IMG/VR virus record: IMGVR_UViG_3300020477_000990
Coordinates: 264,150 to 328,149 of that record
Source of the DNA: a virus
DNA: 64,000 bases
Direction: 5' to 3' (one strand)
How positions within the stretch are numbered: position 1 is the stretch's first letter; each line of letters starts with the position of its first letter. The notes under the pieces are model-generated. The model saw nothing but the letters and a program-made list of their open reading frames with translations. It had not been told where the DNA came from and did no database searches. A program made the position numbers and the translations under genes. This document shows positions 1,858 through 64,000 of the stretch, in pieces.

Positions 1858-3927
1858 ATGAATACTAAAGACTTAACGCGATACAGAAATATAGGTATTA
1901 TTGCCCACGTTGATGCTGGTAAAACAACTACAACAGAAAGAATATTATACTATACCGGAAAATCCCATAAAATTGGTGAAGTTCACGATGGAGCCGCGAC
2001 AACGGACTACATGGAACAAGAACAAGAACGTGGTATAACAATTACATCAGCGGCAACTACAGTTTTTTGGAACGATCACAGAATTAACATTATTGATACA
2101 CCAGGACACATTGACTTTAACATTGAAGTAAACAGATCATTAAGAGTACTTGATGGTGCTGTAGTAGTATTTGATGGAGTTGCAGGTGTAGAACCACAAT
2201 CAGAAACAAACTGGCGTTTAGCAGATCAATACAGAGTTCCAAGACTTTGTTTTGTAAACAAATTAGATAGAACAGGTGCAGATTTTTTAAGATGTGTTGA
2301 AATGATTAAAGAAAGACTAGGTGCAAAACCAGTTATAATGACAATACCAATTGGTGCAGAATCTAATTTGCAAGGTATTGTAGATTTAGTTACAATGAAA
2401 GCAATAGTTTGGGATGGAGAGCAATTAGGTGCTTCATTTAATGAGCAAGAAATTCCAGAAGATATGAAAGCTGATGCTGAAAAATATAGAACAGAATTAA
2501 TTGATACTGTAGTTGAACAAGATGAAGCTGTAATGGAATCATATTTAGAAGGTGAAGAACCAACAGTAGAACAAATTAAGTCTTGTGTTAGAAAAGGTAC
2601 AGTTGCATTTGATTTTGTTCCTGTATTATGTGGTAGTGCATTTAAAAATAAAGGTGTACAACCTTTACTAGATGCAGTAGTTGATTACTTACCTGCACCA
2701 ACAGAAGTTGATGCAATATATTCTATAGATGAAAATGGTGAACAAAAAGATCCTATTAAATCTGACCCGTCATTACCATTTAGTGCGTTAGCATTTAAAA
2801 TTATTAATGACAAGTATGGTGCATTAACATTTGCTAGAGTATATAGTGGTAAGGCAAGTTCAGGACATACACTTTACAATTCAACAAGAGATGAAAAAGA
2901 ACGTATTGGTAGAATATATGAAATGCACGCCAATTCAAAAGAAGAAGTAAAAAATATACAAGCTGGTGATATTATTGCATTTGTAGGATTAAAAAATGTT
3001 ACTACAGGTGATACTTTAGTTGCAGAAGATAGTGAAGTAGTATTAGAAAGAATGGTGTTTCCAGAACCAGTTATTGATATTGCAGTAGAACCAAAAACAA
3101 AAGATGACCAAGAAAAAATGGGAGAAGCACTTGGTAAGTTTGTACAAGAAGATCCAAGTTTACGAGTTAAAACAGATCAAGAAACAGGTCAAACAATTTT
3201 AAGTGGAATGGGTGAATTGCATTTAGAAATTATTGTTGATAGAATGAAAAGAGAATTTAAAGTTGGCGCCAATATTGGTAAGCCACAAGTTGCTTATAGA
3301 GAAACAATAACAAAACCATATGAAGTAACATATACACATAAAAAACAATCAGGTGGTTCAGGACAATTTGCACATATTGTTTGTAATATTGAACCAGGAC
3401 AACGTGGTGATGGGTATACATTTGAAGATGAAATTAAAGGTGGTAATGTTCCTAAAGAATTTATACCATCAGTTGAAGATGGGTTTAAAACACAAGGCTA
3501 TTCAGGAGTATTAGCAGGATGGCCAACAGTAGATTATAAAGTTACATTGTTAGATGGAAAATATCACGAAGTAGATTCATCAGCAATAGCATTTGAAATT
3601 GCGGCAAAGGCCGCTTTTAGAGAAGGTATGAAACAAGCAGGACCAGTATTATTAGAACCTATGATGAAAGTTGAAGTTATTACACCTGAAGAATATTTAG
3701 GAGATGTAATAGGTGATTTAAGTTCACGTAGAGGACAAATTAGAGGGCAAGAACCAAGAGGTAATGGATTAGTGTTAGATGCATTAGTTCCTTTAGCCCA
3801 AATGTTTGGATATGTTGGTAATTTACGTTCTTTAACAAGCGGTAGAGCGTCATACAGCATGGAATTTAATAGTTATGAAATTGTACCAAGCAATGTACAA
3901 GAAGAAATAGTAGCAGGAAACCAATAA
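1858..3927 (+). CDS. fusA: Elongation factor G
   Basis: A complete 689-residue EF-G, the usual length. The G domain shows G1 [13 protein letters not shown], the switch I region ending [13 protein letters not shown]3 DTPGH and G4 NKLDR; domains II-V follow, including the G-G-S-G-Q-F-A-H segment of domain IV, which reaches into the decoding centre. EF-G drives GTP-dependent translocation and, with RRF, ribosome recycling. All GTPase motifs appear intact, so it should be active rather than a decoy. Full-length EF-G is rare in phages. It leads a block with Smr, two cold-shock proteins and uL11; uL11 forms part of the EF-G binding site, so the pair may act together. Confidence 0.97.
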
Positions 3928-59701: not shown

Positions 59702-60634
59702 ATGAGAATATTTCCAAGCAAGGCTTTAATAGGCTTTTTAGCAGTAATATTTGCGTTTGTATTAGTCAGTTGTAGTGAAGCTGAAGCTGTAGAGACAAAA
59801 ATCTACGGTACGTTTAACTACAAATTGAGTAATGACGAGAATAGTTCTGGTACAAGTCATTTAAAGGCTGAAAACAACTCATCGTTGGTAGGCATTGACG
59901 CCGCTGAAGATATTGGCGAAGGCATAACTGGCTTTGCTAAATTAGAAGTAGGTGTTGATACTGATGATGGCAATAACAATCCTTTTGATTCACGTTTAGC
60001 TTATGTAGGCTTAAACTTTGGTCAACTAGGATCGATATCTGCAGGACGTCAGTCATCTCCATTTACTGATAATGTAAGTGGAATAACAAATGTATTTGAA
60101 GTTTATGGTTCAGGTGCAGATCAAAATTTGTTCACACGTGATGCAAATACGATCGCATACTCGAATCAAATGGCGGGAATTACATTTGATGGTCTAGCAA
60201 AGATAGACGGTTCTACAGGTAAGAATGGGATAGATGTTTCAGAAGCAACAGCTACCTATTCTACATTTGGAGTAACTGTAAGTGGTGGTGTATCAAATGA
60301 TCATGTAAATGATATTGATTACTACGGCGCTGGAGTATCTTATGATGCTTCGTCAATGGGTGTACCTGTAAGTGTAGGTTATACTTACACATATAAGGAT
60401 GCCGCAACTGATGTTACAGGCAATGAAATCATTGGATCTTATTCTGTTAGTAATGATTTAAAAGTTACTGGTGGATACGGTAAAATCGAAGATTCAACTG
60501 CATTTTATACAGCAGGAGCATCATATGGAATAACTGGTTCATTATCAACGTATGTTGAATATGAGCATCAAAACAAAACTGGATCAAATAACGATACAGA
60601 CAGTTATTCTACCGGTCTTAAATTTACATTCTAA
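59702..60634 (+). CDS. Phage-encoded outer-membrane porin
   Basis: 310 residues, a Gram-negative trimeric-porin type. Signal peptide (residues 1-30) with a lipobox-like LVSC and an AEA-type cleavage site, mature start VETKIYGTFNYKLSN, repeated beta strands with the loop-3-like stretch GRQSSPFTDNVSGI, and a C-terminal aromatic strand ending in Phe (YSTGLKFTF) needed for assembly by BAM. Expressed strongly (promoter, Shine-Dalgarno). It may exclude further phages, replace a receptor, or aid nutrient uptake. Confidence 0.9.
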   Translation: MRIFPSKALIGFLAVIFAFVLVSCSEAEAVETKIYGTFNYKLSNDENSSGTSHLKAENNSSLVGIDAAEDIGEGITGFAKLEVGVDTDDGNNNPFDSRLAYVGLNFGQLGSISAGRQSSPFTDNVSGITNVFEVYGSGADQNLFTRDANTIAYSNQMAGITFDGLAKIDGSTGKNGIDVSEATATYSTFGVTVSGGVSNDHVNDIDYYGAGVSYDASSMGVPVSVGYTYTYKDAATDVTGNEIIGSYSVSNDLKVTGGYGKIEDSTAFYTAGASYGITGSLSTYVEYEHQNKTGSNNDTDSYSTGLKFTF

Positions 60635-60646
60635 TTTAAGGCTCTT

Positions 60647-60696
60647 TCAAGAACGTCTTGATCAAAGGGGAGGTTGGTATTTTACCAGCTTTCCTC
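60647..60696 (+). terminator. Two stem-loops after the porin gene
   Basis: TCAAGA-ACG-TCTTGA (60647-60661) and a longer imperfect hairpin with TGGTA/TACCA core (60663-60696). No T-run. The second hairpin runs into the rpiB -35 box. Probable 3' end or stabiliser of the porin mRNA. Confidence 0.45.
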
Positions 60697-60725
60697 TTGA
60701 CAAATTGCATATCGGTAAATATAAT
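60697..60725 (+). promoter_or_regulatory. Sigma70-type promoter, leaderless configuration
   Basis: TTGACA at 60697-60702, 17-nt spacer, TATAAT at 60720-60725, 6 nt before the rpiB ATG at 60732. Confidence 0.7.
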
Positions 60726-60731
60726 ATACAT

Positions 60732-61196
60732 ATGAAAACTATTGATCTTATTCTAGGTTCTGATCATAGAGGCCTAGAATTAAAACATGAATTGCTAGAT
60801 TGGATATCACCGGACGATATCGAAAACGAAACAAAGTTTGATGTGGCGGTAATACAAAATTTAAAACCACATGATAATAAAAAACCTGTTGACTATCCAG
60901 ATGTATTAAAAGAGTTTGGACATTATTTTGATATATACAATCATGGTATATTAATATGTGGATCTGGATTTGGTATGTGTATTGGTGCAAATAGATTTAA
61001 AAATGTTAGAGCAGTAGTTTGTAGAGATGTATTTGATGTTGAACAGGCTAGACAACATAACAATATGAATGTATTATGTATGGGTGCAGATTATACAGAT
61101 TTTGATACAGCAAAATATATGGTTGAAGCTTTCTTTACAGAAAAGTTTGAAGGTGGTAGACATTTGCGTAGAGTTAAAAAGTTAGGTAAGTTATGA
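60732..61196 (+). CDS. rpiB: Ribose-5-phosphate isomerase B
   Basis: 154 residues, full RpiB/LacAB length. ILGSDHRGLELKHELLDWI, VDYPDVLKEFG, GILICGSGFGMCIGANRFKN (catalytic Cys and anion hole), FDVEQARQHNNMNVLCMGA, and FEGGRHLRRVKKL. It interconverts ribulose-5-P and ribose-5-P. The product is the substrate of the phage PRPP synthetase at 45125. The ATG at 60732 is chosen over longer in-frame starts because of the promoter and homology. Confidence 0.93.
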   Translation: MKTIDLILGSDHRGLELKHELLDWISPDDIENETKFDVAVIQNLKPHDNKKPVDYPDVLKEFGHYFDIYNHGILICGSGFGMCIGANRFKNVRAVVCRDVFDVEQARQHNNMNVLCMGADYTDFDTAKYMVEAFFTEKFEGGRHLRRVKKLGKL

Positions 61197-63278: not shown

Positions 63279-63746
63279 ATGAAAAAACTTTGGTATCAGA
63301 AACGATCATCTGTTGAAGGAAATGGACTTTTTGCTAATCGATATATTGGTAAAGGTAAAAGAGTTATTCAATATACCGGTGATAAAGTTAAAAAGAAAAT
63401 TGGGTATAAACGAGCAGAAAAACATTTACCAAAAATTTTTATATTTGAATTGAATCATCATTATCTTATTGATGGTAAAGTTAGATGGAATCCTGCTAGA
63501 TTTATAAATCATTCATGTAATCCAAATTGTGATATAGAAATAGAAAATAATGAAATTTGGGTAATATCTAAAAAAAATATCAGAAAGCATCAAGAGTTAA
63601 ATTATAATTATGGTTATGCATTTGATACTGTTGACGTTAAAGATCATCCTTGTAAGTGTGGAGCCAAAAATTGTGTAGGATATATTTTAGATGAAGATGA
63701 TTGGCCAAAGTTAAAGAAATTCAAGAAAAAATTGACAAAAGTATAG
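63279..63746 (+). CDS. SET-domain protein lysine methyltransferase
   Basis: 155 residues, a compact SET domain: VEGNGLFANRYIGKGKRVI, IQYTGD, the knot RFINHSCNPNCDIEI, and LNYNYGYAF, then a post-SET cysteine set CKCGAKNC. All SAM-binding and substrate-channel motifs are present. SET enzymes methylate lysines of proteins, including ribosomal proteins. Adjacent to bL33-like and, in the same genome, uL11. The target is unknown. Confidence 0.9.
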   Translation: MKKLWYQKRSSVEGNGLFANRYIGKGKRVIQYTGDKVKKKIGYKRAEKHLPKIFIFELNHHYLIDGKVRWNPARFINHSCNPNCDIEIENNEIWVISKKNIRKHQELNYNYGYAFDTVDVKDHPCKCGAKNCVGYILDEDDWPKLKKFKKKLTKV

Positions 63747-63761
63747 AAATGTATTATAGTA
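63732..63761 (+). promoter_or_regulatory. Promoter for RNase P RNA and tRNA-Ala
   Basis: TTGACA at 63732-63737 and TATAGT at 63756-63761 (18-nt spacer), or the overlapping TATTAT at 63752. A late-type AGTAAATA lies at 63758-63765. Both predict a start at 63768-63771, at the 5' base of helix P1. Confidence 0.6.
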
Positions 63762-63768
63762 AATACAT

Positions 63769-63922
63769 TAGCATAATCGGGCTATCGCTGGTAACAGAGG
63801 AAAGTCAGGACACAGGCAGATATGTGCAAGTCCAAATAGATTGTCAACGACTGCCAGGACAACGGGTAGGACGCAAAGATAAATGGTAGCAATGAACAGA
63901 ATCCTGCTTATGAATTATGCTA
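63769..63922 (+). ncRNA. rnpB: RNase P RNA, minimal form lacking the specificity domain
   Basis: P1: TAGCATAAT (63769-63777) pairs perfectly with ATTATGCTA (63914-63922). P2: GCTATC (63781-63786) with GGTAGC (63885-63890). P3: CTG-GTAA-CAG (63788-63797). Conserved region I is GAGGAAAGTC. P4: 63802-63810 (AAGTCAGGA) pairs with TCCTGCTT (63902-63909) leaving the universal bulged U, with compensating changes from the usual CCGGG/CCCGG. P5 CACA/TGTG encloses only an 8-nt loop where the S domain (P7-P14) should be. The conserved CAAGTCCAAATAG, P15 TTGTC/GACAA, CGGGTAGG, GATAAATGG and AACAGAATCCTGCTTAT follow. P6, P16, P17 and P18 are absent. 154 nt against about 375. Confidence 0.88.
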
Positions 63923-63925
63923 TGT

Positions 63926-64000
63926 GGGGGATTAGCTCAGCTGGGAGAGCGCCTGATTTGCATTCAGGAGGTCAGCGGTTCGATCCCGCTATCCTCCACC
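63926..64000 (+). tRNA. tRNA-Ala (TGC), last base beyond the window
   Basis: Cloverleaf: acceptor GGGGGAT/ATCCTCC, anticodon stem CCTGA/TCAGG with loop TTTGCAT, T-arm AGCGG/CCGCT, discriminator A, then CC; the final A of CCA is outside the window. It starts 3 nt after P1 of the RNase P RNA, so they share a transcript. Confidence 0.96.

Follow-up and report, generated by a model that had tools for sequence, protein, structure and literature searches.

RNase P RNA is among the few universal ribozymes, and it is viewed as a cellular (or organellar) gene. In bacteria, its type A form (Rfam family RF00010) has a length of about 350–400 nt. A naturally reduced form is the archaeal RNase P RNA of Pyrobaculum (type T/P), which retains the catalytic domain but lacks almost all of the specificity domain (PMC4919922). 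Bacterial C-domains of types A and B, from which the S-domain was removed by laboratory deletion, cleave pre-tRNA with and without protein, with lower affinity; deletion of residues 94–204 of the E. coli RNA abolished cleavage of one pre-tRNA, the S-domain-deleted E. coli RNA with protein still cut pre-4.5S RNA, and deletion of P18 lowered the rate of the E. coli RNA more than 3000-fold (PMC11143913). The diverged RNase P RNAs of CPR bacteria, which are cellular, are missed by normal score cut-offs and lack several helices, the described examples being without some S-domain helices (for instance P12–P14), P18 or P15 and not without the entire specificity domain (PMC8172020). In phages, the nearest functional parallel is the theta ribozymes of gut phages, which are phage-encoded, linked to tRNA genes and connected with tRNA end processing; these are HDV-like self-cleavers whose proposed targets are tRNA 3′ trailers, and their fold and chemistry are unrelated to those of the RNA described here (PMC10879173). 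For phage-encoded RNase P RNA itself, no report was found in searches of 5.39 million open-access papers.

The DNA analysed here, which we call the window, is a stretch of 64,000 nt that forms the final 64 kb of a 328,149-nt virus record. A portal and a DNA polymerase of T4 type, a terminase large subunit, ribonucleotide reductase and virion proteins are all encoded in the record, which is thus a jumbo phage. Window positions 63769–63922 on the plus strand, on which all RNA features, the promoter and the tRNA given below lie, hold an RNA of 154 nt, counted from P1 to P1, which judging from homology is almost certainly a bacterial type-A RNase P RNA cut to its catalytic domain; the assignment is based on RF00010, on our own covariance model R1 and on covariation. 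The preliminary description of this DNA had proposed a search with the Rfam bacterial RNase P covariance models, and this search gave a match to RNaseP_bact_a (RF00010) over the whole model (1–367) with 73.6 bits and E = 1.6e-22 in 501 nt; record-wide the value is E = 2.4e-23, and the match is the sole one in the 328-kb record at E ≤ 10. RF00010 is the best-scoring family for the window RNA, and neither bacterial type B (RF00011) nor, at E ≤ 10, archaeal type T (RF02357) gave a match at the locus. The likeness to archaeal type T pointed out previously therefore stands in the functional sense only, the RNA being of bacterial class A; the reduced specificity domain is common to the Pyrobaculum RNA and ours, and because ours belongs to the bacterial class, its loss of this domain is most simply taken as independent of that in Pyrobaculum. 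The gathering score of RF00010 is 100 and the window RNA falls under this cut-off, as the CPR RNAs fall under theirs, so that a routine Rfam scan with default settings misses it and lists only tRNAs. R1 scores the window RNA at 175 bits, a value to be read with the fact that R1 was built partly from the window sequence. The z-score from energy folding is only −1.5, but the P4 and P6 pseudoknots are beyond what the programme can model, which makes single-sequence folding uninformative here.

Following the RNA from its 5′ end, P1 (63769–63777, pairing with 63914–63922; UAGCAUAAU/AUUAUGCUA) and P2 (63781–63786 with 63885–63890; GCUAUC/GGUAGC) are followed by P3, a 3-bp stem with a GUAA tetraloop (63788–63797; CUG-GUAA-CAG), and by conserved region I, CRI, GAGGAAAGUC (63797–63806), which was located from the RF00010 alignment. 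The 5′ strand of P4 with its bulged U (63802–63810) pairs with 63902–63909 (AAG-U-CAGGA/UCCUG-CUU), and this helix and CRI, both active-site parts of type A, are thus present. P5 (63811–63826; CACA/UGUG) is closed by an 8-nt loop in place of the entire specificity domain: P7–P14, which take up 158 model positions of RF00010, correspond to 8 nt in the window RNA. The conserved region ACAGAA together with the P4 3′ strand, ACAGAAUCCUGCUUA (63896–63910), and the conserved J18/2 segment AAAGAUAAAUG (63875–63885), here without P18, were again placed by the RF00010 alignment. Up to this point our model agrees with the preliminary description, which had P1, P2, P3, P4 with the bulged U and P5 forming, had recognised CRI, and had found the whole specificity domain and P18 to be missing, both of which losses the RF00010 alignment confirms; the sequence ACAGAA..CUUA is confirmed too.

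The two accounts differ for the middle of the RNA. P6 had been called absent, but the P5 loop carries GGCAG (63815–63819), which forms a pseudoknot with CUGCC (63851–63855) of the next loop and changes in step with it in relatives; the P6 pseudoknot between the P5 end and L17 is accordingly present. P16 and P17 had also been called absent; a stem UUGUC/GACAA (63841–63845/63858–63862, within 63841–63862), whose loop carries the P6 3′ strand, occupies the P16/P17 position, and the true P15 is GUCC/GGAC. The 5′ strand of P15 and the conserved AAAUAG of L15 lie at 63830–63839, as shown by the RF00010 alignment. The earlier statement that L15 lacks the GGU for the tRNA CCA end does not hold either, since the 3′ side of L15, CGGGUAGG, falls on the conserved CGGGU in the RF00010 alignment; the GGU that binds CCA (CGGGUAGGAC) and the P15 3′ strand GGAC lie at 63863–63872. 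With the CCA-binding site and the P6 pseudoknot retained, the window RNA is less stripped than was first claimed. What it shares with type A is P1–P6, P15 with GGU, the P16/17 position, CRI, the bulged U of P4, J18/2, ACAGAA and the P4 3′ strand, whereas it differs in its length, in lacking P7–P14 and P18, in being phage-encoded beside a tRNA and in scoring below the Rfam cut-off. The specificity domain with its T-loop binding site being absent, we file the RNA as a reduced variant and not as an ordinary type-A member. A separately encoded specificity domain, sought via RF00010, gave no second match in the record at E ≤ 10. The engineered bacterial C-domains are likewise without the S-domain, but they are laboratory deletions (PMC11143913), whereas the window RNA is a natural evolving gene that has lost P18 too.

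An important check was the presence of the same RNA in related phages, in which the preliminary description had proposed to look for covariation. DNA-pattern scans of IMG/VR gave six close homologues, namely L005, L014 (a 242-kb contig) and L030, and a second lineage consisting of L038, L039 and L040; they sit in phages related to that of the window, with proteins up to 86% identical. The seven contigs, which come from several metagenomes, have the same architecture, with compensatory changes in all helices except the invariant P4. In the MAFFT alignment of the seven close RNAs, 95.8% of helix cells are paired and 15 pairs show double changes, a result reached in 0 of 500 shuffles, and sliding of the partners lowers pairing to 27–39%. 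When all 20 phage RNAs, including those of the wider class described below, are taken together, 97.5% of helix cells are paired, 30 of 37 pairs have changes on both sides, and 194 cells show double changes against a shuffled mean of 52 (0 of 500 shuffles; covariation score 0.668 versus 0.153); the helices other than P4 were fitted to the R1 structure in this alignment, so these counts lean towards R1, a bias from which the seven-RNA MAFFT alignment is free. Double changes occur in all seven modelled pairs of P1. For P4, which R1 modelled as plain sequence, the eight pairs are 100% paired in the 20 RNAs and five of them show double changes, the variants being CAGGA/UCCUG, CGGGA/UCCCG, CCCGA/UCGGG, CAGGG/CCCUG, CGGCC/GGCCG and CGCGA/UCGCG. 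P6 also changes in step, as GGUAG/CUACC (L005), GGUGG/CCACC (L014, L030), GUUGAG/CUCAAC (L038–L040) and ACGAGC/GCUCGU (L100), and its loop-loop pairing lies above 20,000 loop shuffles (permutation p about 5e-5). Most of the TerL relatives examined, which are fragments, gave no RNase P RNA match.

Scans with a longer core recovered more reduced RNAs (L100, L245–L250, L252, L254 and L257), mostly in tRNA-rich phage contigs; about a dozen larger yet still reduced RNAs are found in unrelated tRNA-rich phages. RF00010 confirms these longer-core RNAs in whole records, L100 with 106.8 bits even exceeding the gathering score, and R1, when built from the seven minimal RNAs only, recovers 13 others. Cores in this wider class are 108–192 nt, and the place of the specificity domain is taken, as read from the sequence, by a single hairpin (L100) or a short P7–P8-like remnant. 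A final scan yielded 17 loci whose cores measure 178–208 nt; P4 pairs fully in 15 and with four of five pairs in one. L251 and L256 have core matches without recovery by R1 or RF00010 and were left out of the confirmed count. The first scan pattern, in which a 25-nt gap was required, missed the family, and most matches of the loose motif patterns look like coding sequence and are without P4 pairing. In a scan of 84,980 species, the RNase P-like candidates L127, L137 and L132 were set aside with lengths of 344–424 nt, and so was L150, in which the P15 region is missing too and which may be an assembly collapse. A 177-nt reduced RNase P-like RNA was also observed amid several tRNAs on a contig of an Elusimicrobia MAG (L143:3931–4107); because a different contig of the same MAG carries a full-length RNase P RNA, the contig with the reduced RNA is probably phage.

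The wider class includes cultured phages. BLAST with L040 led to Stenotrophomonas phage DLP6 (KU682439.2, 105774–106022; L258:3807–4052; RF00010 54.7 bits, E = 3.3e-17), and BLAST with concatenated RNAs led to Microbacterium phages A3Wally (MZ150783.1, 93852–94072; L285; 72 bits, E = 5.1e-23) and Big4 (ON637770.1, 91779–91999; L286; 51.3 bits, E = 5.0e-16), with Microbacterium phage Zooman also listed; when the window RNA and L100 were compared by BLAST with phages and plasmids, the matches were at chance level only. In DLP6, A3Wally and Big4, the RNA occupies an unannotated gap immediately before a tRNA, and reduced phage RNase P RNAs have apparently never been annotated before. On the evidence of these sequences, reduced bacterial RNase P RNAs in phages are real and conserved.

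Linkage to tRNA genes is a further characteristic of the family. In the window, tRNA-Ala(UGC) starts 3 nt downstream of P1 (63926–64000), with 75 of its 76 nt inside the window. These 75 nt are common to both record ends, beginning exactly at the tRNA 5′ end (window 63926–64000; L151:1–76), which means that the genome is circular or that the assembly was broken at a shared tRNA. The gene after the RNA and tRNA in L005 is a homologue of the gene after the tRNA-Ala with which the record of the window begins, so the RNA locus is syntenic across the record ends, the tRNA being Asp in L005 and Ala in the window. Among 20 loci, 14 have a same-strand tRNA beginning at most 13 nt downstream of the RNA, and the adjacency is kept while the identity of the tRNA varies (Ala, Asp, Ser, Gln, Arg, Thr, Leu, Lys). 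The earlier reading of the locus as a catalytic-core RNase P RNA adjoining a tRNA is thus strongly supported by covariance-model scores, covariation and the conserved tRNA-gene linkage. CCA is encoded in 15 of 15 phage tRNAs; the previous statement that all seven tRNAs encode CCA also holds, the CCA of tRNA-Ala being completable only from the opposite record end since the window stops at tRNA base 75. Upstream, a sigma-70-like promoter (TTGACA-17 nt-TATAGT, 63732–63760; 11 of 12 consensus matches) ends 8 nt before P1, and TTGACT/TTGACA and TATAAT hexamers occupy the same place in L014, L030, L039 and L040. L246, which has no downstream tRNA, shows after the RNA what reads as a terminator-like hairpin and a T-rich stretch. 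The simplest reading would be that the 3′ end of the RNA is made by an RNase P cut at the tRNA, or by a terminator where the tRNA is absent. Given the 3-nt spacing to the tRNA, and the retention of a tRNA downstream whatever its identity, it is plausible that the RNA frees its own 3′ end by cleaving at tRNA-Ala, a cut that host RNase P could make likewise.

We consider it probable that the window RNA, a phage-encoded type-A RNase P RNA, acts on phage tRNAs together with the RnpA of the host. Its function as a tRNA-processing ribozyme is likely, and it is from sequence that we infer its catalysis, expression, partner protein and substrates. RnpA (PF00825) gave no match in any of 20 carrier records, that of the window among them, the same search giving matches in 10 of 14 control genomes, and use of the host protein fits this result. 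The RNA's own sigma-70-like promoter would drive transcription of the RNA and the following tRNA, and the RNA would then join, most likely, host RnpA. The complex may cleave the 5′ leaders of the CCA-encoding tRNAs of the phage and possibly tmRNA too; because the T-loop docking site is gone, recognition would be mainly via the CCA end and acceptor stem. Whether made by the phage or the host enzyme, a cut where the downstream tRNA begins would also create the 3′ end of the RNA itself.

Other explanations should be weighed against this reading. That the RNA is the functionless, decaying remnant of an RNase P gene captured from a host, or arose in assembly, might be suggested by the missing half of a normal RNase P RNA and by the score below the Rfam cut-off, but the same architecture with compensatory changes in seven contigs, the related reduced RNAs in isolated phages and the kept promoter and tRNA linkage all stand against it; covariation contradicts it, and we regard it as extremely improbable. 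RnpA binds the catalytic domain of bacterial RNase P RNA, and phage mimics of host machinery are common. A non-catalytic mimic, binding pre-tRNAs or the RnpA of the host so that host RNase P is blocked or redirected in infected cells, would accordingly suit an RNA that retains the catalytic domain without the T-loop docking domain. A pure decoy, however, need not retain an active site, whereas P4 with the bulged U, CRI, the J18/2 segment and GGU are all kept and P4 is fully compensated in the 20 RNAs; as the tRNA-gene linkage also points to tRNA processing, such a mimic seems unlikely to us.

In view of the effects of the 94–204 and P18 deletions in E. coli, ordinary pre-tRNAs might be poor substrates for the window RNA. 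An active ribozyme directed mainly at other phage RNAs, such as permuted tmRNA, mRNAs or unusual tRNAs, would be in line with the E. coli S-domain deletion that lost one pre-tRNA and kept pre-4.5S RNA with protein (PMC11143913), and the phage of the window, L014 and L030 do encode a permuted tmRNA. No such tmRNA is present, however, in the seen parts of the other carriers, where tRNA adjacency is general, and CCA is encoded in all tRNAs with GGU kept in the RNA; a main role on these other substrates is therefore doubtful.

Returning to tRNA processing with host RnpA, we incline, with some reserve, to a broader proposal: many phage lineages may carry their own RNase P RNA, reduced stepwise from a short P7–P8 remnant to none, which would re-programme host RnpA into a phage RNase P. 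Such an enzyme would mature the tRNA arrays of the phage without need of the host's RNase P RNA, and it would recognise its substrates less strictly, by their CCA end. If this is true, tRNA-rich phages bring their own tRNA-processing ribozyme, and the view of how phage tRNA arrays mature will change. A natural bacterial-type RNA without the whole specificity domain shows the minimum that evolution keeps, namely P4, P6 and P15 with GGU and no T-loop docking, and it offers a small natural ribozyme for studies of structure and mechanism. The cultured carriers DLP6, A3Wally, Big4 and Zooman make the reading directly testable.

Several other genes of this phage can be mentioned. Just upstream of the RNA, the window encodes a small protein resembling ribosomal protein L33 (63052–63267; Pfam 29.7 bits, above its cut-off) and a SET-domain protein whose gene (63279–63746) extends into the promoter region of the RNA. 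Farther away are a full-length gene for elongation factor G (1858–3927; NCBIfam EF-G 1074 bits) and homologues of a Gram-negative porin (59702–60634) and ribose-5-phosphate isomerase B (60552–61196). The permuted tmRNA, with the tag ADENLALAA, is located at L155:14952–15270 (record 94952–95270), with copies in two related phages at L014:10573–10892 and L030:2675–2992; the alphaproteobacterial tmRNA model matches the L030 copy, which gives a hint at the host.
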